DNA of 64,000 nt, from positions 1-64,000 of the forward strand of contig JAAELR010000038.1 in NCBI GenBank assembly GCA_024226455.1. Reading direction: 5' to 3'. The notes beneath the pieces were generated by a model. The model was not told the DNA's origin. It saw only the letters and a program-made list of their open reading frames with translations, and made no database searches. This DNA comes from Paracoccaceae bacterium. GTDB lineage: Bacteria; Pseudomonadota; Alphaproteobacteria; Rhodobacterales; Rhodobacteraceae. The translations under genes and the position numbers were made by a program. Within the stretch, counting starts at the first letter, position 1; the number at the start of each line of letters is the position of its first letter. Of this stretch, positions 9,795-53,007 are shown one piece after another.

Positions 9795-9795
9795 C

Positions 9796-11091: not shown

Positions 11092-11276
11092 GCACCCCCG
11101 ACAGACGGCTTTTCGACGAATAGACGTATCCGCGGTTTTGACCATGCGCCCGAAAGGCCCCAGACCGGCAGGGATTCACCTTGCCGCCAGCCACTGATTT
11201 CACACCAACCGCGGCCAATAGGCGCGAAATTTCGCCTACATGTTGAAAGAAACCCTATGAGAGTGGCCAGTTTCGG

Positions 11277-11317
11277 GTTACATGTTTTCCGAACTCTACT
11301 TTCGGAAAAGGTGTAAC
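11277..11317 (+). promoter_or_regulatory. Long two-part inverted repeat abutting the aminotransferase start
   Basis: Outer arms GTTACA/TGTAAC and inner arms TTTTCCGAA/TTCGGAAAA are both perfect, separated by 2-bp offsets, with a 7-nt loop. The 41-bp dyad ends at the base before the ATG at 11318, and the AAAAGG ribosome site lies inside the right arm. It could be a protein operator or an mRNA hairpin that blocks translation. A 12-bp palindrome (11224-11235) lies just upstream. Confidence 0.6.
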
Positions 11318-37828: not shown

Positions 37829-38569
37829 TCAGTGCCGCACATGCCCGTGATGCTGGCTCTCTTCGTCGGACACGAAATCCTTGAGCCGACCGATATCGCT
37901 TACCGCAACGCTGTGGCGCGATACGGTGACACCCTGCTGGCGCAGGCTGGCGAAGGACCGGGACAGGCTCTCGGGTTTCATCCCCAGCCGCTTGGCGATC
38001 AGCACCTTGTCATAAGGCAGAACCAGCGTACAGGCGCCCTCATCCACCGGCGCCAGTGAAATCAGGAAGGTTGCCAGCCGCTGCACGCCCGACAGAGCCT
38101 TGAGGTTTTCGATCTCCAACACCAGTTCGTGCAGGTGGTTGAAGGTCGATCCCAGCATCGCCAGGGCAAGTTCGGGGTCGCCGCGCAGGGCCTCGGACAC
38201 AACCCGCGCATCGACCTGGATCAGGACACTGTCCTGCACCGCCTCTACCGTCACCGGGTATAGCCCTTCCTTCAGCGCCACCGCTTCGCCAAAGGAATTG
38301 CCCTCGGAAAACACCGCCACCACGATCTCGTCGCCGCCGGGGGTCAACCGCACCAGTTTCACACACCCGACCAGAATCACATACATGTGGCTTGCCGGGT
38401 CGCCTTGCAGAAACAGGGTCTCGCCGCGGCGGACATTGCGCTTGTGGCTGTCGGACAGGATCCGGGAGAGCATCGCGGACGGTACATTCTTGAAAAGAAC
38501 CGATCCGCGGGCCTTTTCCATTTCCGCTTGTGTCAACACTGCAAATGCGCCCCCGGTTGTTCCCGACAC
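37829..38569 (-). CDS. nnrR: Crp/Fnr-family regulator, NnrR/Dnr type
   Basis: 246 residues: cyclic-nucleotide-binding-like barrel (about 25-140) and a winged helix-turn-helix (IAKRLGMKPESLSRSFASLRQQG). There is no N-terminal four-cysteine cluster, so it is not an oxygen-sensing FNR with an iron-sulphur centre; Dnr/NnrR proteins of this class sense NO, probably through heme. Location between nor and nos and the dyads before all cluster genes make it the likely activator. The C-terminal tail is histidine-rich (SQHHGHVRH), unusual for the family. An NnrR box lies 70-83 bp upstream of its own start, allowing autoregulation. Confidence 0.88.
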   Translation of the reverse strand: MSGTTGGAFAVLTQAEMEKARGSVLFKNVPSAMLSRILSDSHKRNVRRGETLFLQGDPASHMYVILVGCVKLVRLTPGGDEIVVAVFSEGNSFGEAVALKEGLYPVTVEAVQDSVLIQVDARVVSEALRGDPELALAMLGSTFNHLHELVLEIENLKALSGVQRLATFLISLAPVDEGACTLVLPYDKVLIAKRLGMKPESLSRSFASLRQQGVTVSRHSVAVSDIGRLKDFVSDEESQHHGHVRH

Positions 38570-38638: not shown

Positions 38639-38652
38639 TTGACGAAAATCAA
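38639..38652. promoter_or_regulatory. FNR/NnrR-type box between nnrR and the UbiE/MenA operon
   Basis: TTGACGAAAATCAA, full 5-4-5 match, in the 140-bp divergent gap. It is centred 76 bp from the nnrR start and 64 bp from the start at 38710, so it can serve either or both. Confidence 0.8.
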
Positions 38653-38709
38653 GCAAGCCGATACTGCATTGTTTTAGAGTCGCTGCAACGGGACGAAGGA
38701 GATAACTCT

Positions 38710-38916
38710 ATGCGTATGGTGGCGATAGCGGCGGCGTGGTTTTTTTCGCAGACGAGCCTTGCATTGGCACATCACGACAAGACGCCCCTGCGCGAAGCCG
38801 TGCTGCAGGGGCATTCGCATGACGTCGGCGGTGCGACAATATGGTTGCTGGTGGCAGCCATCGCGCTGGTTCTGGCCCTGGTTGCGGTGCAGAAATCAGT
38901 GTTTCGCAAGCGATGA
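38710..38916 (+). CDS. Small membrane protein with histidine-rich periplasmic segment
   Basis: 68 residues. A signal-like hydrophobic N-terminus ends near LALA-HH (residue 20), a short segment has five histidines (AHHDK, QGHSHD), and one membrane helix (about 43-62) ends with basic FRKR. Clear ACGAAGGAG ribosome site. No family recognised. First gene of a four-gene overlapping operon behind an NnrR-type box. The histidines might bind metal; this is inference. Confidence 0.72.
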   Translation: MRMVAIAAAWFFSQTSLALAHHDKTPLREAVLQGHSHDVGGATIWLLVAAIALVLALVAVQKSVFRKR

Positions 38917-39170
38917 CCGCAAGGTCCGGGTATGACGGGGACAGCGGTCGTTGGCCGGTGTGGAAGATCGGCGTGGTGATTTATCCTCTGGCGGTGGGGG
39001 CCGCTGCAGTGAACGTCTTTTTTGCCGGGCTGATGGGGCAGGCGGTGGGGCTGCAGGCCTTGTCGCCGGTGGCTGCCTGTCTGGCCGGTGTCGTGGTGGG
39101 AGCGCCCTTTGCCTGGATCGTGGCGCGCTGGCTGCGCGGGCTGATCGACAAAGCCGAGGACGAGGCGTGA
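38913..39170 (+). CDS. Small two-helix membrane protein of unknown function
   Basis: 85 residues with two membrane helices (about 16-38 and 42-65). The start ATG overlaps the stop of the gene before it (ATGA) and its stop shares a base with the ubiE-like ATG, so it is translationally coupled both ways. I do not recognise the family. The compact size suggests an accessory or assembly role for a membrane complex. Confidence 0.7.
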   Translation: MTARSGYDGDSGRWPVWKIGVVIYPLAVGAAAVNVFFAGLMGQAVGLQALSPVAACLAGVVVGAPFAWIVARWLRGLIDKAEDEA

Positions 39171-39934
39171 TGCGCGCGAAACCGGCGCGGGCAGAAGCCC
39201 TGGATGAACTGCGCCAAACCTTCGGCGACCGACCGGTTACACAAGCCGAGCGGCGAGACGAGGTCACCGCGCTTTTCGACCGGATCGCACCGCGCTACGA
39301 CCTGATGAACGATCTGATGAGTTTCGGCCTGCACCGGCTGTGGAAACGGGCGATGGTGCGGCTGGCGGTCAAGCAGATTCGTGGCCGCGAGGGCTCGCTG
39401 ATCGACCTGGCCGGCGGCACCGGCGACATCGCGCTGGCGGTCAGGGCCGCCGTCCCGGCGCGCGAGGTGATCGTCGCCGACGCCAGCGCCGGCATGCTGG
39501 CCGAGGCGCGGCGCCGCGGCGGCGATACGCTGGGATACCTGCAGGCCGAGGGCGAGGCGCTACCTGTGGAAAGCGCCAGCGCCGCCGGGGTGACGCTGAG
39601 CTTCGGTTTGCGCAACATGACCGACCCGGCCCTGGCGCTGCAGGAATGCGCCCGGGTGCTGGCACCTGGCAGCAGCCTGATCTTGCTGGAATTTTCCCGC
39701 CCCGCCACGTGGTTTTCGCCGTTCTACACACTGCATTCGCGCTATGTGATCCCCGCGCTCGGGGCGCTGGTGGCGCGTGATCGCAGCGCCTATGGCTATC
39801 TGGTCCAGTCGATCCGCCGCTTTCCCGCCGCCGGAGACATCGCGCGCGAGCTGGAGCACGCCGGTTTCCGGGTTGCCCTCACCAGGCGCCTGATGTTCGG
39901 CGTCGCGGTTCTGCATGTGGCCGAGGTGATATGA
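39170..39934 (+). CDS. ubiE: UbiE/MenG-family quinone C-methyltransferase
   Basis: 254 residues with the UbiE layout: FDRIAPRYDLMNDLMSFGLH, SAM-binding LIDLAGGTGDIAL, LSFGLRNMTDP and a conserved C-terminal region. The family methylates demethylmenaquinone and the benzoquinol ring of ubiquinone precursors. The position inside a denitrification island, coupled by overlap to a MenA-like gene, is unexpected for a housekeeping enzyme, so it may be a specialised paralogue. Whether the chromosome carries another ubiE cannot be seen. Confidence 0.88.
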   Translation: MRAKPARAEALDELRQTFGDRPVTQAERRDEVTALFDRIAPRYDLMNDLMSFGLHRLWKRAMVRLAVKQIRGREGSLIDLAGGTGDIALAVRAAVPAREVIVADASAGMLAEARRRGGDTLGYLQAEGEALPVESASAAGVTLSFGLRNMTDPALALQECARVLAPGSSLILLEFSRPATWFSPFYTLHSRYVIPALGALVARDRSAYGYLVQSIRRFPAAGDIARELEHAGFRVALTRRLMFGVAVLHVAEVI

Positions 39935-40866
39935 CCGTTTCGGCCCCTACCGCCGCCCAGACCCTGCTGGCCGACCGTCTGGCCCGGCTGCCGCGCCCGG
40001 TACTCTGGGTGATCGCGGCGCGGGTCAAGACGCTGGGCCTGTCGCTGGCGCCGGTGGCGGCGGGCAGTTGGCTGGCAGCGCAATCGGGCGGCTGGCGCGC
40101 CGAGGTCATGGCTGCGGCGATGGCGGCGGCTGCGGCTATCCAGATTGGCACCAACCTGTGGAATGACGCGGCGGATGCGGGCAGCGGGGTCGACGGACCG
40201 GGCCGGCTGGGGCCGCCACGGCTGACATCGCTGGGGCTGCTGCAGCCAGGCCAGGTGCGCAAGGCGGCGGCAGGGATCTTTGCGCTGGCAGCACTGCTGG
40301 GCTTGTGGCTGGCCCTGATCGGCGGCTGGCCGATCGTGGCCATAGGGCTGGTGTCGCTGGCCCTGGGATACCTCTATTCGATGGGGCCGCGCCCGCTGTC
40401 CGGCACTCCGCTCGGAGAGCTTCTGGTGATCGGGTTTTTCGGCGTGGTCGCGGTGGCCGGCACCGTACATCTGCACGGGCTGCCGGTGACGGGCCGGGCG
40501 CTGGCGCTGGGTCTGATCACGGGGTTTCCGGCGGCGGCGGTGCTGCTGATCAACAACCACCGAGACCGGGTCGGCGACGCCCGGGCTGGGCGCCGTACGC
40601 TGGCGATTGTCACCGGCGAACGGGTGTCGCGCGGGCTTTACGCGGCCCTGATATCGGCGGCTCTGGCCGGGGCAATCCTGTTCGGCGGCTCCTGCGGCGC
40701 AAGCCTGCTGGCGCTGGCGCCCGCCATGTTGCTGGGCGCCGGTCTGGTGCTGGCAATGGCGCGACTGCCGGTCTCGGCGGCGCTGAACCGGCTGATCCCC
40801 GGCACGGCAGTGTTTCAGCTGATGCTGCTTGCGGGCATCGTGGCCGGTCCGGCGCTTTGCACCTGA
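39931..40866 (+). CDS. menA: MenA-like UbiA-superfamily prenyltransferase
   Basis: 311 residues and about eight membrane helices. The first prenyl-diphosphate motif reads NLWNDAADAGSGVD and the second NNHRDRVGDARAGRRTL, both in the MenA (1,4-dihydroxy-2-naphthoate prenyltransferase) form rather than the UbiA or CtaB form. LGELLVIGFFGVVAVAGT also matches MenA. Alphaproteobacteria of this type normally use ubiquinone, so a MenA homologue with a UbiE partner is noteworthy. It could prenylate a naphthoate or another aromatic acid. Overlaps ubiE by 4 bases; ends 18 bases before the convergent PCuAC gene. Confidence 0.82.
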   Translation: MTVSAPTAAQTLLADRLARLPRPVLWVIAARVKTLGLSLAPVAAGSWLAAQSGGWRAEVMAAAMAAAAAIQIGTNLWNDAADAGSGVDGPGRLGPPRLTSLGLLQPGQVRKAAAGIFALAALLGLWLALIGGWPIVAIGLVSLALGYLYSMGPRPLSGTPLGELLVIGFFGVVAVAGTVHLHGLPVTGRALALGLITGFPAAAVLLINNHRDRVGDARAGRRTLAIVTGERVSRGLYAALISAALAGAILFGGSCGASLLALAPAMLLGAGLVLAMARLPVSAALNRLIPGTAVFQLMLLAGIVAGPALCT

Positions 40867-40884: not shown

Positions 40885-41340
40885 CTATTCGGTTGCGCCG
40901 GGGCCCTTGACCGGCAGCGATATCTGCACTTCGCCGGCCTGCTCGAAGATCAGCGTCGCCTCTACCGTCTCGCCCTCGACAAGCTGCCCGGTGAGACCGA
41001 TAAACATCAGATGCAGCCCGCCGGGCTTCAACACGGCCTCTCCGCCCGCGGGAATGTCAATTGCCTCGACCTTGCGCATCCGCATGACACCGTCATCGTG
41101 GATATGGGTGTGCAACTCGGACCGCTCGCAGGCCTCTGATGCGAAGCCGAGCAGCCGGTCGGCCGGCCCGGTAGAGCGAATCGTCATGAACCCGGCCCCC
41201 GCGCGCGCCATCTTCGGAGAGGCGCGGGTGAAACCGCCGGTGATTTCCAGCGATTCGGTGATGGTTTCCTGTCCCAGCACCGGGGCCCCGGCAAAGGCGA
41301 GGGCTGCGGTTGTGGATGCAATGAATGAACGGCGGTGCAT
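40885..41340 (-). CDS. PCu(A)C-type periplasmic copper chaperone
   Basis: About 151 residues with a signal peptide starting MHRRSF (an in-frame ATG at 41358 adds six residues; AGGAAA precedes 41340 better). The Cu(I) motif H-x-M and M...H-x-M is spread over LHTHIHDDGVMRMRKV and GGLHLMF, as in PCuAC proteins. These deliver copper to CuA or CuB sites. It is divergent from nosZ with a shared FNR box, so a role in loading the NosZ copper centres is likely. Confidence 0.88.
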   Translation of the reverse strand: MHRRSFIASTTAALAFAGAPVLGQETITESLEITGGFTRASPKMARAGAGFMTIRSTGPADRLLGFASEACERSELHTHIHDDGVMRMRKVEAIDIPAGGEAVLKPGGLHLMFIGLTGQLVEGETVEATLIFEQAGEVQISLPVKGPGATE

Positions 41341-41415
41341 GGCGGCTGATTTCCTCATTCTTCTGGGCGCCGGGGCGGGATATTTCTGCTTTAGGGCGGG
41401 GCAGATCGACCCTCT

Positions 41416-41429
41416 TTGATATCGATCAA
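41416..41429. promoter_or_regulatory. Perfect FNR-type box between PCuAC and nosZ
   Basis: TTGATATCGATCAA, the exact FNR consensus TTGAT-N4-ATCAA, centred 113 bp before nosZ and 82 bp before the PCuAC start. The half-sites differ from the GTCAA type seen before nir and nor genes, hinting at control by FNR as well as NnrR. Confidence 0.85.
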
Positions 41430-41535: not shown

Positions 41536-43833
41536 ATGACCAACAACATTCGCAAACGCCTTGCGGCGACAGCGGGCGTTGTCACCTTGGGCCTTGGCCT
41601 TACCGTGAATGCGGTATCGGCCGAGAACCTGGACGAGGTGATGGCGCGCCGCGGATTGTCCCAACAGGACCTCCTTGCCGCGGCCAAGACTTATACGCCC
41701 TCGGGGGGCCGGGACGAGTTCATCGTCTTCTCCTCCGGTGGCCAATCAGGACAAGTCATCGTTTACGGCGTGCCGTCGATGCGGATCCTGAAATACGTCT
41801 CGGCTTTCACACCCGAACCCTGGCAGGGCTTTGGGTTCGATGAGGAATCCAAGGCGATTTTAGAAAGCGCCAAGGTGGACGGCCGCGAGATTCAATGGGG
41901 CGACACCCACCATCCCGCCATTACCGAGACCGATGGCGACCTGGACGGTGAGTGGCTGTTCATTAACGACAAATCCGCACCCCGGATTGCCGTGATCTCG
42001 CTGCACGACTTCGAAACCCAGCAGATCGTGGTCAACCCGATCATGCAATCCGAGCACGGCGGCGCCTTCGTCACGCCGAACTCGGAATACGTGATCGAGG
42101 CCGCCCAGTATCCGGGTGTTCTTGGCCGCGGCTTTGCGCCGCTGTCGGAATTCAACGAAAAGTTCCGCGGCGCCGTGACCTACTGGAAGTTCGACCGCGA
42201 AGCCGGCCGGATCCAGCCGGGGCAAAGCTTCTCGCTGGAACTGCCACCTTACAGCCAGGACCTTTCGGATGCCGGTAAGGGCGTATCCGAGGGCTGGTCG
42301 TTCACCAACTCGTTCTGTGCCGAGCGTTACGTAGGCGGCATCGAACTGGGCCGCCCGCCGTTCGAGGCAGGCTGCTCGCAGGCCGACACCGACTTCTTGC
42401 ATGTAATCAACTGGAGGAAGGCGGAAGAGGTTTATAAGGCCGGCAAGGTCACCATGATCAACGATCACCCGGTGATCATGATGGATACCGCCATCGCCGA
42501 AGGCCTTGTCTACCTGATCGCAGAGCCCAAGTCGCCGCATGGCGTCGACGTTTCGCCGAACGGTGAATACATCATCGTCGGCGGCAAGCTCGACACCCAT
42601 GGCAGCGTTTACTCCTTCTCGAAGATCCAGGCCGCGATCGAGGCCGGCAAGTTCGCCGGAACCGACCCCTACGGTCTGCCGATCATCGCCATGGAAGACG
42701 CGATCCACGTTCAGGTGCCGCTGGGCCTTGGCCCGCTGCACACGCAGTATGACAGCCGCGAATGCAACGTGTTCACTTCGCTTTACGTGGACAGCCAAGT
42801 TGTGCGCTGGGACTATTGCGAAGGCAAGGTGCTCGACAAGATCTCGATCCACTACAACATCGGCCACCTGGTCGCGATGGAAGGCGAAGGCGTCAACCCG
42901 AAGGGCAAGTACCTGATTTCGCTCAACAAGTTGGCGATTGACCGGTTCAACCCCGTGGGTCCGCTGCACCCGCAGAACCACCAGTTGATCGACATCTCCG
43001 GCGACAAGATGGAGCTGCTCTACGACATGCCGATCCCGCTGGGCGAGCCGCACTACGCGACCGCTATCGCGGCAGAAAAGCTCAAGCCGCTTGTTCGTTA
43101 CCGTTACGGCACCAACAGCCGGACCGGTGGCAAGCACGAGGGCGCAGTGCGTCCCGGGCAAGAGCGCATCGAGCGTGACGGCACCCACGTCAAGGTCTAC
43201 ATGACCGCGATCCGGTCGCACTTTACGCCCGAGATCGTGGAAGTGAACGAAGGCGACACCGTCGAGTTCATCGTCACCAACTCGGAACGTGCCGAGGACG
43301 AAACCCATGGTTTCGCCGTGTCGACCTACAACGTCAACCTGTCACTGGAGCCGGGCAAGACCGCGACCGCCAAGATCGTCGCCGACCAGGCAGGCGTCTT
43401 CTCGTTCTACTGCACCGAGTTCTGCTCGGCGCTGCACCTCGAGATGACCGGCTTCCTGGTGGTCAAGCCTGAAGGGTATCAAGAGGCCTCGGCCGAGATC
43501 TCGGAAGGTACCTCCTATACCCAGGCTGACTATGACAAGCAGTACCAGACCAACCTGGACACCCAGGCCGTCATCGACAGCGTCGTCGCCTACATCACCG
43601 GGCGCAACTTCAAGGACTTCCCCGAAGTTGTCTCGTTGGTTGAAGACGCGGTTGACCAACTGAACTTTGCCGCCGAAGCACGTGCGAAGGCAGAGGAAAC
43701 AGCCCAGGCAGGAGACTGGCAGAACGCCACGCTCTGGGCCGGTCAATGGTGGCAGTATCAGGTCAAGGCCGCCGATATCGGCCTGCGCGCCAAGACCTTC
43801 CTGGACGAACACGGGGCGGTAGTAGTCGAATAG
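41536..43833 (+). CDS. nosZ: Nitrous oxide reductase, clade II (Sec-exported), with C-terminal extension
   Basis: 765 residues. Reduces N2O to N2 in the periplasm. The N-terminus MTNNIRKRLAATAG is a Sec-type signal, not the twin-arginine leader of clade I. CuZ histidines lie in WGDTHHP, SEHGGAF, SPHGVDV, LDTHGSV, PLHTQYD and YNIGH; the CuA site is C626TEFC630SALH634LEM637. About 128 residues follow M637, roughly 110 more than usual; this tail is helical, acidic and has no CxxCH. Genes nosB, nosG, nosH and two cytochromes downstream support clade II. An FNR box precedes it. Confidence 0.95.
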   Translation: MTNNIRKRLAATAGVVTLGLGLTVNAVSAENLDEVMARRGLSQQDLLAAAKTYTPSGGRDEFIVFSSGGQSGQVIVYGVPSMRILKYVSAFTPEPWQGFGFDEESKAILESAKVDGREIQWGDTHHPAITETDGDLDGEWLFINDKSAPRIAVISLHDFETQQIVVNPIMQSEHGGAFVTPNSEYVIEAAQYPGVLGRGFAPLSEFNEKFRGAVTYWKFDREAGRIQPGQSFSLELPPYSQDLSDAGKGVSEGWSFTNSFCAERYVGGIELGRPPFEAGCSQADTDFLHVINWRKAEEVYKAGKVTMINDHPVIMMDTAIAEGLVYLIAEPKSPHGVDVSPNGEYIIVGGKLDTHGSVYSFSKIQAAIEAGKFAGTDPYGLPIIAMEDAIHVQVPLGLGPLHTQYDSRECNVFTSLYVDSQVVRWDYCEGKVLDKISIHYNIGHLVAMEGEGVNPKGKYLISLNKLAIDRFNPVGPLHPQNHQLIDISGDKMELLYDMPIPLGEPHYATAIAAEKLKPLVRYRYGTNSRTGGKHEGAVRPGQERIERDGTHVKVYMTAIRSHFTPEIVEVNEGDTVEFIVTNSERAEDETHGFAVSTYNVNLSLEPGKTATAKIVADQAGVFSFYCTEFCSALHLEMTGFLVVKPEGYQEASAEISEGTSYTQADYDKQYQTNLDTQAVIDSVVAYITGRNFKDFPEVVSLVEDAVDQLNFAAEARAKAEETAQAGDWQNATLWAGQWWQYQVKAADIGLRAKTFLDEHGAVVVE

Positions 43834-43917: not shown

Positions 43918-44574
43918 ATGCGCGCTTTACTCTCTGCCCTCATCCTCGGCGCCGCCGGCGTTCTGGCGCCCCCCGCGATCGCTGCCGATGAAGACGTGCT
44001 GCGGGCCGGCAAACGGGTCTACATGACCAAGACCTGCCTGGCCTGCCACGGACGCAACGGGGCCAAGCCGATCATGTCCTACCCCGCACTGGCGGGGCAA
44101 AACGCGAAATACCTGGTGCAGCAGCTTGAACTGATCAAGTCCGGCGAGCGCACAGGCAGCGTCGATCCGGCGACAGGGCATCCTTTTGTTCAGGGCATGG
44201 CCGACATCATGCACCTGCTGACCGAGGAAGACATGGAAAACGTCTCTGCCTGGCTGACCGAGCAGAAACCCGCCGCGCCAGAGGTGCTGGACCCCGCCCC
44301 GACCGAGGCCGAACTGAAGGCCGGCGCCAAGATCTACAAGCGGCTGGGCTGCCGGACGTGCCACGGCAAGACCGGCGACAAGACGCAAAAAGACCTCTAC
44401 CCGTTCATCGCCGGTCTGGACCGTGACTATCTTGTCCGCCAGATGACCGACATGCGTGAAAAGATACGCACCGGCGGCAAGGTGAAACTGATGTTCGGCG
44501 TGATCAAGCGAGCCGATGACGAAGATATCGCTGCGATTGCAACCTGGCTGAGCCAGCTTGACCGCAACGAGTAG
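43918..44574 (+). CDS. nosC1: Diheme periplasmic cytochrome c (NosC1-like)
   Basis: 218 residues, signal peptide ending AIA-AD (about 22), and two class I cytochrome domains with C40LACH44 and C145RTCH149, of the cytochrome c553/c4 type. It probably donates electrons to the CuA site of NosZ, as the c-type cytochromes in clade II nos clusters are thought to do. Follows nosZ by 84 bases including the hairpin. Confidence 0.85.
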   Translation: MRALLSALILGAAGVLAPPAIAADEDVLRAGKRVYMTKTCLACHGRNGAKPIMSYPALAGQNAKYLVQQLELIKSGERTGSVDPATGHPFVQGMADIMHLLTEEDMENVSAWLTEQKPAAPEVLDPAPTEAELKAGAKIYKRLGCRTCHGKTGDKTQKDLYPFIAGLDRDYLVRQMTDMREKIRTGGKVKLMFGVIKRADDEDIAAIATWLSQLDRNE

Positions 44575-44601
44575 CAATACCGCAAGAAAGGGACGCACAA
44601 C

Positions 44602-45327
44602 ATGAAGACCATGACAAAGACGCTATTGGCCGTACTTCTGGCCACAGCCTCGCCGGCGCTGGCCGCCGGCACCGGAGACGACAACAACGCAGCCGGCTGG
44701 AACGAGGGCGGCGGCGAGCAAGACGAGGCCCTGACCCTGGTACCTGACCACGAGAACGGCATCTACACCTACGAGGTTTGCTCTGCCTGCCACCAGATGA
44801 ACGGCTGGGGCCTGACCGACGGAACCTTCCCGCAGATCTCGGGCCAGCATGTGAACGTGATCATCAAGCAGCTGGCCGATATCCGGGCGCTGAACCGCGA
44901 CAACCCGACCATGTATCCCTTTGCCCTACCACAGGAAATCGGCGGAAGCCAGGCGATCATGGATGTCGCCACCTATATCCAGAAACTGCCGATGAACCCG
45001 AACCCGGGCGTCGGTGCCGGCGACGATCTGGAGCACGGCGCCAAGCTTTACGCCGATAACTGCGTGCGCTGCCACGGCGAGACCGGCGAAGGCTCGAACG
45101 AGAAGTTCTATCCCCGCATCCATGGCCAGCACTACAGCTATCTGGTGCGCCAGTACGAATGGATCAGGGACGGCAAGCGCCGCAACGCCAACCCCGACAT
45201 GGTCAAACAGATCGAAACCTTCACCGAGCGTGACACCAAGGCGGTGCTGGACTATGTCAGCCGCATGAAACCGCCAGCGGATATGATCGGTGACCCCGAC
45301 TGGGTCAATCCGGACTACGACTGGTAA
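44602..45327 (+). CDS. nosC2: Diheme periplasmic cytochrome c (NosC2-like)
   Basis: 241 residues, signal peptide ending LAA (about 22), hemes at C60SACH64 and C154VRCH158. Similar in plan to the cytochrome just upstream and probably a partner in the same electron path. An AAGAAAGGGA ribosome site precedes the ATG. Confidence 0.85.
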   Translation: MKTMTKTLLAVLLATASPALAAGTGDDNNAAGWNEGGGEQDEALTLVPDHENGIYTYEVCSACHQMNGWGLTDGTFPQISGQHVNVIIKQLADIRALNRDNPTMYPFALPQEIGGSQAIMDVATYIQKLPMNPNPGVGAGDDLEHGAKLYADNCVRCHGETGEGSNEKFYPRIHGQHYSYLVRQYEWIRDGKRRNANPDMVKQIETFTERDTKAVLDYVSRMKPPADMIGDPDWVNPDYDW

Positions 45328-45393: not shown

Positions 45394-46575
45394 ATGACAA
45401 AATCTGAAGACACGCGCCGCGGTATTGTTTACCGCGTGCTGACGCTCGTTTCGGTCGCGCTGATCGCGGCCGCCTTCTTCTCGCCCGGCTGGTGGGTGTC
45501 GCTGACCGCGCCCAACTACCCCGAGCAGAGCTTTCCGCAAGGTGTGCGGATCGTGTTTCACATGGACAGCGTGCGCAACGGCTGTGACATCCGCGTCAGC
45601 GAAGAGGTCGAGGTTACCGAGGCGCTGGACTGCGTGCACGAGATGGACACGATCAACCACTTCGTCGGCATGTTCCCCATCGCATCCGGCGGGCCGGTGG
45701 AAAAGGCGTTCTCGCCCTTCCTGTTTGCCATGCTGGGTGTGATGCTGCTGGCCTTTGCCGCCCCTGGTCGCTGGCCGCGAATGACGGTCTCGGTGGTGGG
45801 CTATGGTGCGGTGGCAACGTGGATGACCATGGCCATGTATGGCGACAACGGGGTGCGGCTGCACACCAAGGGCTATGTCGAGGGGATGGTGGTGTCGCTG
45901 GGGCAGGATGCCAGCGAGTCGGCGCGCAACGCCAGCCTGGCCCCGGTTGTGCAGATGCTGCAGCAGTCGCTGGCCGACAGCGAGGCCGAAGAGGTCGGCG
46001 CCGCCGCCGACAGCGACAACAAGGACGCCATGATCAAGACCCTGCGCAGCGCCTACCGGATCGACGACCTGAAGCGGCCGATAGATGAACAGGAAGACTG
46101 GAACGGGTCTCTCATGCAGGTCTTCACGTGGCACTACGGCAAATCGCTGGCCCGCTGGTTCAACAACCCCGAACGCAACGACCCACTGGTGGCGATGATG
46201 GATAACATCGCACAGCTGCTATATGCCGCGATCATCGCGCTGATGGCGCTGATGGTGTTTGCCGCCTGGTCGGCGCGCTCTGCGTTTTACTGGATCCTGG
46301 TGCTGGCGCCGATGGCGCTGCCGGTCGGGTTCCTGGCAGAGTATGCCGCCTGGCTATGGTGGTACGGCCACTCGTTGAACGAGATGGGGGCGTTCACTCT
46401 GAAACCCTTCATGCCCACGGTCTTTGGCGACGGCAAGGTGGCGCAATTTGCCACGCATTCCTACCCGGCCATCGGTTTCGGCTTCATGGTGGCCTCGTCG
46501 CTCATGCTGCTTCTGGCCGGGCTAATTCGGTTCAAACAGCTGCGCCTGGCAGGAGACGCGGCAGCGCGGATGTAG
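45394..46575 (+). CDS. nosB: NosB-like polytopic membrane protein
   Basis: 393 residues with about five membrane helices and a large periplasmic loop between the first and second. The C-terminal YAAWLWWYGHSLNEMGAFTLKP-type region (written in part) with GDGKVAQF resembles NosB of clade II clusters. NosB function is unproven; it is thought to help electron transfer or NosZ maturation. The large loop has two cysteines (GCDI, DCVH). Confidence 0.75.
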   Translation: MTKSEDTRRGIVYRVLTLVSVALIAAAFFSPGWWVSLTAPNYPEQSFPQGVRIVFHMDSVRNGCDIRVSEEVEVTEALDCVHEMDTINHFVGMFPIASGGPVEKAFSPFLFAMLGVMLLAFAAPGRWPRMTVSVVGYGAVATWMTMAMYGDNGVRLHTKGYVEGMVVSLGQDASESARNASLAPVVQMLQQSLADSEAEEVGAAADSDNKDAMIKTLRSAYRIDDLKRPIDEQEDWNGSLMQVFTWHYGKSLARWFNNPERNDPLVAMMDNIAQLLYAAIIALMALMVFAAWSARSAFYWILVLAPMALPVGFLAEYAAWLWWYGHSLNEMGAFTLKPFMPTVFGDGKVAQFATHSYPAIGFGFMVASSLMLLLAGLIRFKQLRLAGDAAARM

Positions 46576-46580
46576 GAACG

Positions 46581-47855
46581 ATGCGAAAGACCCTGTGGTT
46601 CTTCGTGGTCTTCGCCGTGGTGGCGGCCTTTTCGGCCGCCGCCGCCGGGGCGGGGACGTTGCAGGATCTCATTGATGCCGCCCCGGACGGCGCCGAACTG
46701 GTGCCGCCCGCCGGGATCTATTCCGAGCAGATCGTGATCGACCGCCACATCGTGCTGGACGGGCGCAACGGCGTGGTGATCGACGCGGCTGGCAAGGGCA
46801 CCGTGGTGACGCTGAACGCGACCGGCGCCACGCTGAAGAACCTTTCCCTGCGCAACTCGGGCCGGCTGCACAACAAAGTCGATGCGGGGCTTAGGATCAC
46901 AGGCGATTTCAACGTCATACGCGACGTGACCATCGAAAACAGCCTGTTCGGCATCGACATGACGCAGGCCAGCAACAACGTGCTGCGCCGCATCCACATC
47001 TCGTCAAAGGACATGCCGCTGGAAATGCGCGGCGACAGCGTGCGCATCTGGTACTCCAACGACAACAAGTTCGAGGACAATACCGTCGAAGACGCCCGCG
47101 ATATCGTTATCTGGTACAGTTCCGGCAATATTCTGCGCGACAACAAGATCCGCCGCGGGCGCTATGGCATCCATTTCATGTACGCCCATGACAATACGGT
47201 AGAGCGCAACGATATTTCCGACTGCGTCGTCGGCATCTTCCTGATGTACGCCAACGATACTTTCGTACGCGACAACAAGGTCCTGCGGTCCTGGGGGGCG
47301 TCGGGCACCGGTATCGGGTTCAAGGAAAGTTCCGGCGTGGTGGTCGCGGGCAACGACATCATCGGCAACGCCACCGGCATATACCTCGACCCCTCGCCAT
47401 GGGACCCCGACAAGACCAACACGTTCGAAAACAACGTGATCGCTTATAACGGTATCGGGATCGAGTTTCACAACGACTGGACCGGCAACAACTTTGCCGG
47501 CAATGCGTTCATGTCCAATTTCACCCAGATCAGCGTGCGCGGCGGCGGCACCGCCCTGCGCGAGGGCTGGAACGGGAATTATTGGGACGATTACGCCGGT
47601 TTCGACCGTGACGGAGACGGTCAGGGCGACGTTCCTTATGAGATCTACAACTACGCCGACCGGATCTGGATGGAAGTGCCCAGCGCCAGCTTTTTCCGCG
47701 GCGGCCTGGCGCTGGCGGCGTTGGACTTCGTCGAACGCCTGGCGCCATTTTCCGAGCCCCGCCTCTTGATTCGAGAGCGTGCATCGCTGATAGCACCACC
47801 CGAACGCGCCGGGCCCGAAAAGGCCTCGTTATCGGCGCTGGAGTCACTGAAATGA
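46581..47855 (+). CDS. nosD: NosD, periplasmic copper-site maturation protein
   Basis: 424 residues: signal peptide (to about 26) and a right-handed beta-helix built from CASH repeats (NNVLRRIHI, NKFEDNTVEDA, NTVERNDISD, DTFVRDNKVL). It works with NosF and NosY to build the CuZ centre. A C-terminal tail of about 50 residues is variable. Starts 5 bases after nosB, overlaps nosG by 4 bases. Confidence 0.94.
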   Translation: MRKTLWFFVVFAVVAAFSAAAAGAGTLQDLIDAAPDGAELVPPAGIYSEQIVIDRHIVLDGRNGVVIDAAGKGTVVTLNATGATLKNLSLRNSGRLHNKVDAGLRITGDFNVIRDVTIENSLFGIDMTQASNNVLRRIHISSKDMPLEMRGDSVRIWYSNDNKFEDNTVEDARDIVIWYSSGNILRDNKIRRGRYGIHFMYAHDNTVERNDISDCVVGIFLMYANDTFVRDNKVLRSWGASGTGIGFKESSGVVVAGNDIIGNATGIYLDPSPWDPDKTNTFENNVIAYNGIGIEFHNDWTGNNFAGNAFMSNFTQISVRGGGTALREGWNGNYWDDYAGFDRDGDGQGDVPYEIYNYADRIWMEVPSASFFRGGLALAALDFVERLAPFSEPRLLIRERASLIAPPERAGPEKASLSALESLK

Positions 47856-48619
47856 GCGACGCGCCGGAAAAACCCAAGAGAAAACGCCTGACCCGGCGCG
47901 AGCTGGAGCGGCGGCGGGTGATCATGCGCTCGCTGAGCGCCGGGATAGCGGTGGTGACCGCCGGGCTGGTCGGCTGGTACCCGGTGCGGGCCGGAATTTT
48001 CGACCGCTTGCGTCCGCCCGGGGCGATCCCCGAGGATGATTTCCTGGCCGCCTGCATAAAGTGCGGCCAATGCGTTCAGGTCTGCCCGGTCGAGGCCATC
48101 GTGCTGGGCGACGGTAACGAGGGTTACGGCCTTGGCGTACCGCACATCAATGCCCGCAAGCAGGCATGCGACTTTTCCTGCGACGCCACGCAATGCGTGC
48201 TGGCCTGCCCCACCGGAGCGCTGAGTCACGAGATCTCCAGGAAAGAAGAAGTCAGCATCGGTTTCGCCCGTTTCGCCCGGCCCGATGCCTGCCTGGCGAT
48301 GCACGGTGAGGGCTTCACCGGGGTTGTGCAGGGGCCGGATTTCGAGGGATTGCTGCGCTATGAAGAGATCGACCGCTGGACCCCGATCAAGGTGGCCGAT
48401 CACCCCTACGATCTGGAGCTTTGCGATCTTTGCGTGCGCGAATGCCCGATCGAGGACGCGATCCATCTGGAACCCTTGTCGGGCGACCCCGACGAAAATC
48501 GCCACCGCCCGGTTATCACCGACAAATGCGTCGGCTGCGGAACCTGCGAAATGATGTGCCCGACCGAACCGGCAGCCATCATCATCGACACAGAGCTTGG
48601 GCTGGAGCGCCGGTCATGA
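47852..48619 (+). CDS. nosG: NosG, NapG-like periplasmic ferredoxin
   Basis: 255 residues with four [4Fe-4S] cysteine groups: CIKCGQCVQVCP, CDATQCVLACP, CDLCVRECP and CVGCGTCEMMCP. The N-terminal ERRRVIMRSL followed by a hydrophobic segment is a possible twin-arginine leader. In clade II systems NosG and NosH form a quinol-oxidising path to NosZ, like NapG/NapH. Overlaps nosH by 4 bases. Confidence 0.88.
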   Translation: MSDAPEKPKRKRLTRRELERRRVIMRSLSAGIAVVTAGLVGWYPVRAGIFDRLRPPGAIPEDDFLAACIKCGQCVQVCPVEAIVLGDGNEGYGLGVPHINARKQACDFSCDATQCVLACPTGALSHEISRKEEVSIGFARFARPDACLAMHGEGFTGVVQGPDFEGLLRYEEIDRWTPIKVADHPYDLELCDLCVRECPIEDAIHLEPLSGDPDENRHRPVITDKCVGCGTCEMMCPTEPAAIIIDTELGLERRS

Positions 48620-49593
48620 GATGGTATTTTCACAAGCTGGCGATGATGTTCGGCGCTGCACCGCGCAAGCCCGGGCCCAGGGAAGAGACCGACGCCGCCC
48701 GCGATATGAAGCGGTTGCAGAAAACCCCCGACGAGGCAAAAAAACGCAAGGCGCTGATCCTGCACGAGATGGAATACCCACTGGTCAGCAACAAGTGGAA
48801 ATACGCCCGCTGGATCTCGATCATCGTCATCAACCTGATGTTCGTAGTCTCGTTCTCGTGGGACGTGCAGTTGGTCGAGGGCGCCATGACCGCGTCTCGT
48901 TTTCTTGGCTTCCACATGGCCGACCCGACCGGCGCGCTGCAGGTGATGCTGGCCTTCAAGCAGGTCATGCTGAACCTGGTGATCGGCACGGTGACGGTAA
49001 TCCTGATCTGGTGGTTCTTCGGCGGACGGGCGTTCTGTTCCTGGGCCTGCCCCTATCACCTGCTGGCCGAATGGGCCGAAGCGATCCACCTGTTTCTGGC
49101 CCGGCGCGGCTGGGTCAGGGATCAGGTGTTTCACCGCAGTCTGCGGGTGGTGTTGTGGTTTATCTTCATGGGGTTGGCACTGGCCAGCGGCTATACGGTT
49201 TTCGAGTATATCAACCCGGTCGGCATCGTCAGCCGGGCGCTGATCTACGGGCCGACACTGGCACTGCTCTGGGTGCTGTTCCTGCTCTCGATCGAGGTGT
49301 TCTTTTCGCGTCGCTTCTGGTGCCGTTACATCTGCCCGATGGGCCTGACCTATGGCGTGATCGGCACCGCGGCACCGGTGCAGATCAGGTACGACCTGTC
49401 CAAATGCGTGCACGAGGGTGAATGCCGCGAGGTTTGCCTGGTGCCGCATGTTCTGGAAGTTACCAAGATGGGGTATGCATCCGACACCGAGGAATTCATC
49501 GCCTCCGACTGTACCCGCTGCGGACTTTGCGTCGATGCTTGCCCGCAGGGCGCGCTCAGCTATACCATCCGCGGGCTGGACAAGGTGATCTGA
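48616..49593 (+). CDS. nosH: NosH, NapH-like membrane iron-sulphur protein
   Basis: 325 residues with four to five membrane helices, the periplasm/cytoplasm motifs CSWACPYH and CRYICPMG typical of NapH/NosR C-termini, and two cytoplasmic-type clusters (CVHEGECREVCLVP, CTRCGLCVDACP). It would oxidise quinol and reduce NosG. No NosR is present, so this is the membrane entry point for electrons. Coupled to nosF by TGATG. Confidence 0.88.
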   Translation: MRWYFHKLAMMFGAAPRKPGPREETDAARDMKRLQKTPDEAKKRKALILHEMEYPLVSNKWKYARWISIIVINLMFVVSFSWDVQLVEGAMTASRFLGFHMADPTGALQVMLAFKQVMLNLVIGTVTVILIWWFFGGRAFCSWACPYHLLAEWAEAIHLFLARRGWVRDQVFHRSLRVVLWFIFMGLALASGYTVFEYINPVGIVSRALIYGPTLALLWVLFLLSIEVFFSRRFWCRYICPMGLTYGVIGTAAPVQIRYDLSKCVHEGECREVCLVPHVLEVTKMGYASDTEEFIASDCTRCGLCVDACPQGALSYTIRGLDKVI

Positions 49594-50453
49594 TGGGCAT
49601 GATCGCAATCGACGGGCTGACCAAGCGGTTCGAGCGCCGGGCGGTGCTGGACGAGTTGACGCTGTCGCTCGCCGCCGGCGACCGTGTGGCGTTGATCGGG
49701 TCGAACGGGGCTGGCAAGACCACACTGTTTCGCTGCCTGTTGGGGCAGTACCGCTTTCAGGGAACGGTTGGTTTCGACGGCCCGGGCAACGGGCGGCGAC
49801 GCGACACGGCAACGCTGGCGCGCATCGCCTTCGTGCCGCAACTGCCGCCTCCGCTGCGCATGCCGGTTGGCGAATTACTGAAATTCGCCGTCAACGGCAC
49901 CGGCGCGGACCGTGCGTGCATGGATGACATCGCGGCCAAGATGGGCATCGATCTGGCAGAGATCCGGCGGCGGCCGTTTTACCGGCTGTCGGGCGGGCAA
50001 AAGCAGAAAATCCTGGTGACTATCGCGCTGGCGCGTCAGGCCGAACTGATGATCTTCGACGAACCGGCCGCCAATCTCGACCCCGCGGCGCGGGCGGTGT
50101 TCATCGATCTCCTGGCCGAGCGCAAGGATGCCTCGATGCTGATCGCCTCGCACCGGCTGGAAGAGGTCGCCTCGCTGGTCAACCGGGTGATCGAGCTGGA
50201 CCGCGGCAAGGTGGTGCTGGACGACAGCGTCGTCGACCGGCTGAAGGCGGGCGTGTTCCGCAACTGCCGCATCGGCCTGGCAGAGCCGCACCCGACCTTC
50301 ATCACCGCGCTGACCGATTGGGGGTTCGCCAGCGACAACGGCACCATGTATGCCGGACGCATCCCAGCTGGTGACACATTGCGCTTTCTGGGCCTTCTCA
50401 GCCGCTATGCCAGCCTTGTCGAGCATCTGTCGCTCGATACCGGTGAGGTCTGA
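49593..50453 (+). CDS. nosF: NosF, ABC ATPase for NosZ copper-centre assembly
   Basis: 286 residues with Walker A GSNGAGKTT, signature LSGGQKQ and Walker B LMIFDEPAANLDP. Energises NosY in delivery of sulphur/copper for CuZ. The C-terminal 60 residues form an extra domain usual for NosF. Confidence 0.93.
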   Translation: MGMIAIDGLTKRFERRAVLDELTLSLAAGDRVALIGSNGAGKTTLFRCLLGQYRFQGTVGFDGPGNGRRRDTATLARIAFVPQLPPPLRMPVGELLKFAVNGTGADRACMDDIAAKMGIDLAEIRRRPFYRLSGGQKQKILVTIALARQAELMIFDEPAANLDPAARAVFIDLLAERKDASMLIASHRLEEVASLVNRVIELDRGKVVLDDSVVDRLKAGVFRNCRIGLAEPHPTFITALTDWGFASDNGTMYAGRIPAGDTLRFLGLLSRYASLVEHLSLDTGEV

Positions 50454-50456
50454 GCC

Positions 50457-50945
50457 ATGTGCCGCTGCGCCCAACGCCATTCACGCCGCACGGTCCTGAC
50501 CCTGCTCGCCGCCACTGCGACGCTGGCGGGCTGCAAACCGCAGACAGAGGGGCCAGAGCCGATCCGCTGGGGCCGCGAGACCTGCGAGATCTGCGGCATG
50601 ATCATCTCGGACGCGCGCTATGCCGCCGAGGTGCGTGGCGGACCGGAAAAGCGCCTGGCCAAGTTCGACGATATCGGCGACGCGGTGCACTGGCTGAACC
50701 ATCAAAGCTGGAAGTCGGAACCTGATGTTGAATTCTGGGTGATGGACAGCAATACCGGCAAGGACTGGCTTGACGCGCGCCGGTCCTTCTATCATCCCGA
50801 CACGTTAAGCCCGATGGATTACGGCTATGCCGCGGTTGCCACCCGCGAACCTGGCACCGTGACCTTCGAGGTGATGAAGGCGGCGGTGATGCTGAAGGGG
50901 CTTTCCAGCCGCTGCCTGCCGGTCGAGGAGTGGAAAACCGAATGA
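50457..50945 (+). CDS. nosL: NosL, copper-binding lipoprotein
   Basis: 162 residues. Lipobox LAGC26 gives an outer-membrane or periplasm-facing lipoprotein; Cu(I) ligands are in C43EICGM48. It supplies copper to the NosD/F/Y machinery. Here it lies between nosF and nosY, whereas it is most often after nosY. Confidence 0.93.
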   Translation: MCRCAQRHSRRTVLTLLAATATLAGCKPQTEGPEPIRWGRETCEICGMIISDARYAAEVRGGPEKRLAKFDDIGDAVHWLNHQSWKSEPDVEFWVMDSNTGKDWLDARRSFYHPDTLSPMDYGYAAVATREPGTVTFEVMKAAVMLKGLSSRCLPVEEWKTE

Positions 50946-51784
50946 GTTCAAACGCGCGCGCGTCCTTCGGCCTGATCGCAAGGCTGGAGGTACACGAGAG
51001 TCTGCGCTCTCGCTGGTTCCACTTTTACGCCCTGGTCCTGGTAGGGCTGATGCTGCTGCTGATTCTGACCGGCGTGTCGGAAAGCCGGGTGATGGGGTTC
51101 ACCGGGCTGTCGCGCCTGCTGGTGACCTATATCCAGATCACCATGGCGGTGCTGCCGCTGTTTATCATCGTCGCCACGGCACGGTCGATGGTGGGCGACC
51201 GCGAGGCGGGAAACCTGGAATACATGCTGGCCTTTCCGGTGTCGCTTGCCACCTGGTTCTGGGGCCGTTTTCTGGCCCGCCTGATGCTGATCCTGGCGCC
51301 CGTGCTGCTGGCGCTGGGAATTGCGGCGGTGTTCGGGCTGATGAAGGGGCACGAGATACCATGGCGCCATGTGGGGCTCTATTCCGGCCTGACGGCGGCA
51401 CTCGCCACCTGTTTTCTGGGGCTTGGTTTTCTGCTGTCGTCGGTGTCGCGCTCGACCGAGGTTGCCCTGGGCGCCAGCCTGATGATCTGGCTGGTGCTGG
51501 TGGCTCTGCTGGACCTGCTGCTGTTGTCGGTGCTGATCAAGGCGCAGTTCGTGCCCGAATTCGTCATCGGCATCGCGCTGGCCAACCCGCTGCAAAGCTT
51601 CCGCACCGCGTCGATGATCCTGTTCGACCCGCAGTTGATCCTGCTGGGCCCGGCCTCTTATGTCATTCTCGATCTCTTTGGCGTTACCGGTTATGTGGTC
51701 TGGGCGCTGATCTACCCCACCGCGCTGGGGCTTGTCTTTGCCGCCCTGGGATACTGGCGGTTTTCCCGGTCCGATCTGGTCTGA
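50942..51784 (+). CDS. nosY: NosY, ABC permease for NosZ maturation
   Basis: 280 residues and six membrane helices (ABC-2 type). Typical motifs ATARSMVGDREAGNLEYMLAF-like coupling region and LGFLLSSVSRSTEVAL. Partner of NosF. Starts within the nosL stop by overlap. Ends the nos operon, convergent with the tlpA/sco unit. Confidence 0.93.
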   Translation: MSSNARASFGLIARLEVHESLRSRWFHFYALVLVGLMLLLILTGVSESRVMGFTGLSRLLVTYIQITMAVLPLFIIVATARSMVGDREAGNLEYMLAFPVSLATWFWGRFLARLMLILAPVLLALGIAAVFGLMKGHEIPWRHVGLYSGLTAALATCFLGLGFLLSSVSRSTEVALGASLMIWLVLVALLDLLLLSVLIKAQFVPEFVIGIALANPLQSFRTASMILFDPQLILLGPASYVILDLFGVTGYVVWALIYPTALGLVFAALGYWRFSRSDLV

Positions 51785-51855: not shown

Positions 51856-52389
51856 TTACCCGGCGAGACCGCGCAACCAGACAATCGTGGCCGCATCGTC
51901 CCATTGCGCCTCGCCGCTGACCGTATAGGCATGCCGTCCTTGCCGGTCCACGACGGCCGTGCTCGGCAGATCCTCCAGCCCCATGGTCGCCACAAGGTTC
52001 CCGCCCTCGCCCATCAGAACCGGCAGATTGGCTATCTCTGTCTCGCGGTAAAACCGCTGCACCCAGACCGGGCCGCGCCAGTCGAAAGCCAGTGGAAGCA
52101 CCGCGATGCGCCCCGGATCGACCGATGCGGCCAGGCGCGACAGCGACGGCATTTCCCGGCGGCAAGGCAGGCACCAGGGCCCCCAGAAGTTCAGCACCAC
52201 CACTCTGCCCGCCCAAGCCGCCAGCGGCCGGGCCGCGCCCGTCTCGTCCAGCATCTTCAGCCCCGAAGGGTCTCCCACCGGGATCGCCGCGCGGGCAAGC
52301 GTGGCCGCCGGGGGGGCATAACTCTCGGCATGCGCGCCACGCGTCGCCAGCGTCGCCCCCGCACCAGCAAGAAAACCGCGCCGTCGCAT
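51856..52389 (-). CDS. TlpA-like thiol-disulphide protein
   Basis: 177 residues with a twin-arginine-like leader (MRRRGFLAG), a thioredoxin fold and the redox pair C73LPC76 in FWGPWCLPCRREMP. Proteins of this type reduce cysteines of CuA sites or cytochrome c so that copper or heme can be inserted. It is 3 bases after the Sco1 gene, an operon typical of CuA assembly, so NosZ or an oxidase is the likely client. Confidence 0.85.
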   Translation of the reverse strand: MRRRGFLAGAGATLATRGAHAESYAPPAATLARAAIPVGDPSGLKMLDETGAARPLAAWAGRVVVLNFWGPWCLPCRREMPSLSRLAASVDPGRIAVLPLAFDWRGPVWVQRFYRETEIANLPVLMGEGGNLVATMGLEDLPSTAVVDRQGRHAYTVSGEAQWDDAATIVWLRGLAG

Positions 52390-52392
52390 CGC

Positions 52393-53007
52393 CTAGTTCG
52401 CCGGCACCGCCGCCATGCTGGCGCGGATATCGGTGGTGATGTCATCGGCGGCCAGCCCGTGCGGAAAGCGACGGATCAGTGCCCCGTCGGGTCCGACAAA
52501 GGCGATCGAGGCGGTGTGATCGACGGCGTAATCGTCGGGCCTGTCGGGATCGGGGATGTGAATCTCATACCGGGCGTTGAACGCCTTGACCATATGGTCG
52601 GTATAGGCCTTGGGTCCGCGCAGCGCGATGATGCGGTCATCGAAAAAACCCACGTATTCGCGCAGCACCTTGGCGGTGTCCCGGTCGGGATCGACGGTGA
52701 CGAACAGAACCGTCAGCCGCTCCATCCCGTCACCAAGCTGCTCCATCACGTCGGTGATCGTCGACAGCGAGGTCGGGCACACGTCCGGGCAACCGGTATA
52801 GCCGAAATATATCAGCACAAACTGCCCGAAGAGGTCGGCGTCGGTCACCACGTTGCCATAGACGTCCTCCATCAGATAACGTCGCCGGACCGGCTGCGCA
52901 TCATCGGAATTGTCGGCCCCAAGATCGGCATTCTGGGCCCGCAGCGGCATCGCAGCGCCCAGGGCAAGGGCGGCGGCAGTGGCCACAAAGACGCGTCTGT
53001 CTTGCAT
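52393..53007 (-). CDS. Sco1/SenC/PrrC-family copper chaperone
   Basis: 204 residues, leader with MQDRRVFVAT (possible twin-arginine), thioredoxin fold, copper ligands C73PDVC77P and the histidine in VDHTAS. Loads copper into CuA centres of cytochrome oxidase and probably NosZ. AAGGAG ribosome site. An FNR-like dyad lies 53-66 bp upstream of its start. Confidence 0.92.
   Translation of the reverse strand: MQDRRVFVATAAALALGAAMPLRAQNADLGADNSDDAQPVRRRYLMEDVYGNVVTDADLFGQFVLIYFGYTGCPDVCPTSLSTITDVMEQLGDGMERLTVLFVTVDPDRDTAKVLREYVGFFDDRIIALRGPKAYTDHMVKAFNARYEIHIPDPDRPDDYAVDHTASIAFVGPDGALIRRFPHGLAADDITTDIRASMAAVPAN

Follow-up and report, generated by a model that had tools for sequence, protein, structure and literature searches.

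A candidate menaquinone salvage module, with a putative precursor importer, in a clade II nitrous oxide reductase cluster of Rhodobacterales

The DNA analysed here (the window) is a stretch of 64,000 nucleotides from Paracoccaceae bacterium (GCA_024226455.1, contig JAAELR010000038.1; genome completeness 98%, 487 contigs). Within a gene cluster for the reduction of nitrous oxide (N2O), it carries adjoining genes for a MenG/UbiE-type methyltransferase (ubiE2) and a MenA-type prenyltransferase (menA). A gene for a Na+ symporter of the BASS family is located 13 kb downstream of menA, after nosF-nosL-nosY and a divergent sco-tlpA pair. By a narrow balance, ubiE2-menA and the BASS gene probably constitute a menaquinone salvage module. 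The early pathway genes looked for were not found, so the precursor would probably come from neighbouring organisms, and salvage appears the better reading of the operon because of the transporter lying downstream. A more far-reaching proposal is offered tentatively, as possible rather than probable: a dedicated BASS-family importer of 1,4-dihydroxy-2-naphthoate (DHNA) may have been hard-wired, together with MenA and MenG, into the N2O cluster of ubiquinone-making Rhodobacterales, and part of environmental N2O removal may depend on a vitamin-K precursor released by neighbours. The principal features are as follows; the initial annotation, a sequence-only note, did not mention the BASS gene at 53121-54002.

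38639..38652, FNR/NnrR-type box TTGACGAAAATCAA, between the divergent Crp/Fnr regulator and sm1, upstream of the operon
38710..38916, + strand, sm1, 68 amino acids, signal-like N-terminus and one membrane helix (judged by eye)
38913..39170, + strand, sm2, 85 amino acids, two membrane helices (judged by eye)
39170..39934, + strand, UbiE2, MenG/UbiE-type methyltransferase, 254 amino acids
39931..40866, + strand, MenA, DHNA prenyltransferase type, 311 amino acids
53121..54002, + strand, BASS/SBF-family (bile acid:Na+ symporter) Na+ symporter, proposed DHNA importer

MenA scores over the cut-off of the menA equivalog model (TIGR00751, 117.4 vs 102.15 bits) and under the cut-offs of the finer PRK06080 models. 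In a maximum-likelihood tree of 51 rows it clusters with MenAs from genomes that have MenD and with that of Escherichia coli (support 98/96), apart from the UbiA (C352) and CtaB (C373) of its own genome; seven rows of this tree, E. coli MenA included, are flagged as long branches, and homogentisate prenyltransferases were left out. Five rows had been dropped (L028 and L052, truncated; two duplicates; and L053, for which no reading frame could be recovered), and four further PF01040 hits (three duplicates and one weak match) were not entered. The placement rules out a UbiA or CtaB paralog. The initial annotation had called the enzyme MenA-like and proposed a phylogeny; the TIGR00751 match and the tree both bear this out. 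Rows L138, L139 and L142, which we take to be bacteriochlorophyll-synthase-like, are found elsewhere in the tree. Five MenAs from genomes with MenD share 42 invariant residues; of these, 41 are present in the window's enzyme and 37-42 in 26 others, against just 12-15 in four UbiA/CtaB rows. A clade of 29 rows includes the MenAs of the window and of Rhodobium orientis, with a fork that is not fully supported (87/98).

UbiE2 exceeds the cut-off of the MenG/UbiE subfamily (TIGR01934, 221 vs 158.35 bits) and remains under all UbiE/MenG equivalog cut-offs listed (NF001242, 207.7 vs 351; NF001244, 192.6 vs 216; the others scoring lower still), which agrees with the UbiE/MenG assignment of the initial annotation at the level of the subfamily. 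It forms a clade separate from housekeeping UbiE (support 100/100), with the second UbiE of Rhodobium orientis inside. The second ubiE that the annotation had suggested looking for exists: the window's genome has a housekeeping UbiE (C43, 298.7 bits) besides UbiE2. Since the Rhodobium orientis MenA and second UbiE belong to the same clades as those of the window, the likeliest substrate for the enzymes of the window is DHNA, judging from these sequence relationships.

Another source of substrate for the same reaction was considered, in which ready-made menaquinone, phylloquinone or menadione from the environment would be recycled by MenA through exchange of side chains, without any part for DHNA. 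Animal UBIAD1 works by side-chain exchange, and the sole relative of MenA in the PDB at E<=0.01 is UBIAD1 (8djk, E 3.2e-16). A methyltransferase step would be superfluous in such recycling, yet a ubiE2 match lies beside menA in 21 of 28 loci, and menadione, being neutral, is not a typical BASS cargo. This explanation is considered very improbable.

Relatives were collected by a pattern scan with two peptides of the MenA alignment, so that relatives without the exact pattern escape; the result is 32 loci in 31 GTDB species genomes. The 28 loci L024-L051 represent 27 genomes, alphaproteobacterial by title except for L041, whose title says only Pseudomonadota, and many of them are metagenome-assembled. 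In the window's genome, MenD is absent over the cut-off (8 weaker matches, the best at 81.3 vs 244.2 bits), as is MqnA/MqnD (PF02621). Neither is found over the cut-off in 26 of the 27 genomes of L024-L051, the exception being Rhodobium orientis. Of the 31 genomes, four have MenD over the cut-off: Rhodobium orientis and three that do not belong to Proteobacteria. None has PF02621 over its cut-off, the nearest reaching 24.4 of 26 bits. A MenD-like hit in the genome of L036 (L061, 161.8 bits) was rejected; it is under the cut-off and beside genes that read as sugar-nucleotide genes. Draft gaps are an unlikely cause of missing genes in Aliiroseovarius lamellibrachiae, Maritimibacter sp. HL-12 and Pseudothioclava arenosa, whose assemblies of 2-30 contigs are 99-100% complete. 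In Rhodobium orientis, menF, menD, menB and menC are found in line, together with a convergent menE-like gene that scores under the cut-off (259.4 vs 330.15).

De novo synthesis of menaquinone by the known men or futalosine route was thus rejected for the window's genome, where MenD and MqnA/MqnD were not found. The initial annotation had counted a missing precursor pathway against its proposal of a low-potential quinone branch; the absence speaks against de novo synthesis, not against salvage. Of that proposal, the MenA/MenG-like enzymes and their linkage to nos stand, but no known precursor route accompanies them.

The missing early genes would also be expected if MenA and UbiE2 acted on a self-made aromatic acid (gentisate or homogentisate, for example), giving a new prenylated and methylated benzoquinone like methyl-plastoquinone for low-oxygen respiration. 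Relatives other than the MenD carriers equally lack MenD and MqnA/D over the cut-off, and UbiE2, under its equivalog cut-offs, matches the MpqE (methyl-plastoquinone) model NF052510 at 159.3 vs 335 bits, again under the cut-off. The 41 of 42 MenA-invariant residues and the clade shared with the men-bearing Rhodobium argue against such a substrate, although with respect to the tree this comparison is indirect, as homogentisate prenyltransferases are not in it. A linked carrier would moreover be superfluous. We regard a self-made acid as unlikely.

The BASS protein of the window is over the Pfam cut-off (PF01758, 79.1 vs 24.3 bits) and is not a member of the narrower TIGR00841 subfamily, because it reaches only 121.1 vs 326.3 bits there. 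The side chains taken as Na+ ligands of ASBT_NM (3zux) are kept at 7/7 positions in the window and at 7/7 in 25 of 26 linked rows; the copy of L025 was left out of this alignment. At E<=1e-25, a BASS match was detected in 26 of 29 genomes searched, own included, and not in Tropicimonas or the genomes of L039 and L052. The gene is the last of the nos cluster in 13 genomes, that of the window among them. In 12 loci it shares a contig with menA and lies 13.2-13.3 kb further downstream, and the order nosY-tlpA-sco-BASS is kept in 15 of 17 BASS stretches fetched.

In other loci the symporter gene stands directly at the quinone genes. BASS adjoins menA in L024, L031, L033, L050 and L051, following ubiE2-menA in line in the last two, and overlaps ubiE2 of ubiE2-menA in L044; no nos genes occur in the stretches read of these six loci. 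The Pfam check was run on five of the six copies, and the copy of L033 is 57% identical to that of the window. Two of these modules have other surroundings: narHJI is nearby in L033, and ccoNO and an FnrL-like gene are nearby in L044. L024 has nor, and at 9560-12100 it has sm1, sm2, menA and BASS, the last two without any nos gene between them; of ubiE2 only a C-terminal remnant is left there.

These arrangements also bear on an unknown third route to DHNA, in which BASS would carry a keto acid or pantoate-like compound for low-oxygen growth. BASS proteins are presumed to carry varied organic anions, and the window's BASS matches PanS at 55.5 vs 400 bits, under the cut-off. In the nos-linked loci the gene is beyond sco/tlpA and not in the ubiE2-menA operon, and a BASS relative exists in Rhodobium, which also has men genes. 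Against these points, BASS adjoins menA or ubiE2-menA in the six loci without nos genes in the stretch, and no unknown gene is constantly linked in the loci read. Such a route is judged distinctly unlikely.

An order-wide survey covered 390 genomes of the window's order (Rhodobacterales, going by its named members), own included, with the best few candidates per genome scored. NosZ of clade II was found in 4 of them and BASS (48-100% identity) in the same 4; MenA was found in these 4 and in Tropicimonas. The 26 other BASS hits in the order are paralogs at 29-34% identity, 10 of which were entered in a tree and make up a clade of their own (100/100). Across 25 genomes, BASS and MenA identities are correlated (r 0.87; 0 of 5000 permutations as high), which shows co-inheritance and not, by itself, function.

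Another reading is that the genes travelled as passengers with a nos island that moved horizontally and have no present function. The sporadic presence of MenA (5 of 390 order genomes) and the ubiE2 remnant of L024 are consistent with this. However, the conserved MenA residues and the BASS Na+-site residues are kept, and MenA and BASS occur together without nos genes in L024, L031, L033, L050 and L051. Four BASS matches contain an in-frame stop, always at the C-terminal end or no more than 7 residues from it, a position that rules out reading the stops as a sign of pseudogenes. A passenger origin without function is considered quite improbable.

The salvage module as proposed would operate in the following way. 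BASS, coupled to Na+, would import DHNA released by other microbes; MenA would prenylate it, presumably drawing on the same prenyl diphosphate as ubiquinone synthesis; and UbiE2 would methylate the demethylmenaquinone to menaquinone, a step that the housekeeping UbiE may perform where UbiE2 has been lost. FNR/NnrR-type boxes would switch the module on together with the nos cluster. The outcome would be a low-potential menaquinone pool in a ubiquinone cell, serving first the NosG/NosH quinol dehydrogenase and perhaps other low-oxygen enzymes.

The four open reading frames (ORFs) of the operon (38710-40866) overlap end to start by 1-4 bases, as the initial annotation had described. It had also reported a full FNR/NnrR box in front; a box is present, but TTGACGAAAATCAA is a near-perfect and not a full palindrome, because it has one mismatch to TTGATN4ATCAA. 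The same near-palindrome precedes the operon in all five other loci with sm1 and sm2 (L024, L025, L026, L028 and L034). In eight further loci, TTGA(G/T)N4GTCAA with 1-2 mismatches is located 58-66 bases in front of ubiE2, counted from a start assigned by homology. One or the other form was found in 12 of 21 ubiE2 loci, a count that omits L024, the fifth sm1/sm2 locus, where only a remnant of ubiE2 exists. As background, 650-base tiles contain a match at <=1 mismatch in 27 of 556 cases and at <=2 mismatches in 186 of 556.

Several observations weigh against the salvage module. The early-gene negative in the window's genome consists of MenD and MqnA/MqnD, and MenB, C, E and F were not searched. 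Tropicimonas (L029) and the genome of L039 have MenA without MenD or BASS over the limits used. In the nos-linked loci BASS stands outside the ubiE2-menA operon; its paralogs share almost the full set of Na+ residues, which hence do not identify DHNA as cargo; and Rhodobium orientis has men genes plus a BASS relative, so that BASS need not mean auxotrophy. A ubiE2 match is next to menA in 21 of the 28 loci L024-L051, and a single UbiE was found in 5 of 12 genomes checked, which were chosen partly for missing ubiE2. The window has three TTGATN4ATCAA matches at <=1 mismatch, the perfect one being that at 41416, against 0.82 expected, and at least three arise in 6 of 100 shuffles; the count is not beyond chance, despite which the position of TTGACGAAAATCAA supports its reading as a putative operon box. 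No box is present at the expected place in 9 of the 21 ubiE2 loci. Linkage and co-inheritance can be explained by transfer as one island. The norm described for Rhodobacteraceae is ubiquinone-10 only, mostly from aerobic cultures, and ubiquinol-only bacteria with clade II NosZ exist, so menaquinone would not be strictly needed. In the open-access literature searched, no paper tied a carrier to DHNA.

The surroundings of the operon in the window contain the following features.

37829..38569, - strand, divergent Crp/Fnr-family regulator, NnrR-like by position
40885..41358, - strand, PCu(A)C copper chaperone
41416..41429, perfect FNR box TTGATATCGATCAA before nosZ
41536..43833, + strand, nosZ, clade II (Sec-dependent), TIGR04246 857.8 vs 625
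43918..45327, + strand, two c-type cytochromes (43918-44574 and 44602-45327), presumably NosC1/C2-like
45394..47855, + strand, nosB and nosD, by position and sequence, names presumed
47852..48619, + strand, nosG-like 4Fe-4S protein
48604..49593, + strand, NosH, NapH-type membrane quinol dehydrogenase subunit, within ORF 48421-49593, start approximate
49596..51784, + strand, nosF, nosL and nosY, names presumed, order conserved
51856..53007, - strand, TlpA-like thioredoxin-fold protein and SCO1/SenC protein

The denitrification setting with NosH, as first annotated, is substantiated by the clade II nosZ and by NosH, which is over the NapH-type cut-off (TIGR02163, 228.5 vs 213.05 bits). A multiheme cytochrome had been named as a further quinone user; the cytochromes beside nosZ are small c-type proteins, not large multiheme ones. 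The regulator at 37829..38569 is under the cut-off of all 12 NCBIfam models listed, nosB had no family match in the profile searches, and nosL had no Pfam match. The SCO1/SenC and TlpA-like pair between nosY and BASS, kept in 15 of 17 stretches, is probably for copper delivery to NosZ.

The two small proteins had been described as lacking a recognised family, and this holds: neither NCBIfam (at E up to 0.001) nor Pfam (at E up to 1) gave a match. The sm2 start is the in-frame ATG at 38913, the mechanical ORF beginning at 38841. Besides the window, sm1 and sm2 occur together on the coding strand only in L024, L025, L026, L028 and L034; an sm2-like ORF exists in L035 and weak sm2 matches in L036 and L045. 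Being confined to few related loci, sm1 and sm2 are not a core part of the module. In L035 (~8900-9170), the sm2-like two-helix ORF follows a gene of the nirF/nirN propeller type (by eye) and precedes ubiE2, and from this placement sm2 may be a general small protein of denitrification clusters.

A clade II-like nosZ, 70-87% identical to that of the window, is present in the menA stretch in 16 of 32 loci. Other settings of menA are photosynthesis genes (Tropicimonas L029 and Rhodobium L048) and a locus with an Rrf2-type regulator upstream (L039). In L029 (10001-10891) and L048 (10001-10837), MenA of the same clade is encoded near bchE and bchJ, possibly for menaquinone at the QA site of the reaction centre. 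One metagenome-assembled Rhodobiaceae genome (G413; L047 and L049) has two MenA genes and no MenD over the cut-off; one MenA is nos-linked and the other is close to the photosynthesis-linked MenA of Rhodobium.

Elsewhere in the window (58087-61293, + strand), a 1068-amino-acid protein contains a reductive dehalogenase domain (TIGR02486, 194.7 vs 160.35 bits), with 2Fe-2S ferredoxin and oxidoreductase matches in its C-terminal part; it presumably resembles self-sufficient catabolic dehalogenases. A plasmid origin was unsupported, the only plasmid matches being 4 distant ones, none of which covers 80%.

Rhodobium orientis is among the systems with which the window can be compared. Its MenA and UbiE2 are in the window's clades and its BASS relative is ~6.5 kb from menA; it differs in having menF, D, B and C and a menE-like gene, and in that its menA neighbours photosynthesis genes, the stretch read showing no nos gene. 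It presumably contains menaquinone, and no measured quinones of Aliiroseovarius or Rhodobium orientis were found in the literature searched. The remark that importers for shared menaquinone precursors need annotation is reportedly by Ravcheev and Thiele. Organisms with only the last steps are otherwise known: Porphyromonas strains (P. pasteri) with only the last two menaquinone genes depend on DHNA, according to the available part of PMC9704088, and excerpts of PMC4746308 describe incomplete Men pathways in Lactobacillus genomes and importers for shared precursors that remain to be annotated. Lactiplantibacillus plantarum is reported in a portion of PMC10746273 to use outside quinones. As in the salvage of DHNA with menA and menG alone, the last two genes are present and MenD is absent in the window's genome; the window differs as part of a ubiquinone-type alphaproteobacterium with a clade II nos cluster, an FNR-type box and a linked candidate importer.

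Respiration of N2O with menaquinol in Wolinella succinogenes (NosG, C1, C2, H) shares with the window the same nosZ type, the c-type cytochromes, nosG-like and the NapH-type nosH. We take Wolinella succinogenes to make its own menaquinone and its nos cluster to lack such a module. Wolinella NosC cytochromes were predicted to take part in electron transfer between menaquinol and NosZ (PMC11102522, in the section available), and the available text of PMC11539149 gives NosGH/NosBC2/NosC1 as the clade II route. For the alphaproteobacterium Mesorhizobium huakuii, the accessible portion of PMC3237581 reports that menaquinone-7 is made microaerobically in the presence of nitrate, by way of an additional methyltransferase, DmtH; that portion describes DmtH as without homology to men genes and names no MenA or carrier. 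A 2026 survey of quinone pathways lists, in its available part, four species with measured menaquinone and no pathway (PMC13386864). The terms sought did not occur in a plastoquinone paper (PMC12324825), and no paper on nos-linked menA was found in the open-access literature searched.

Bacteria with only the last genes of the pathway are already known, and BASS, tied to menA in two gene orders, provides a concrete and testable candidate for the importer. If the proposal is true, ubiquinone-based Alphaproteobacteria could, at low oxygen, switch on an additional quinone pool whose head group they do not synthesise, and quinone typing of aerobic pure cultures without DHNA would overlook this menaquinone pool. 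The reduction of N2O by such organisms may then hinge on the cross-feeding of a precursor.

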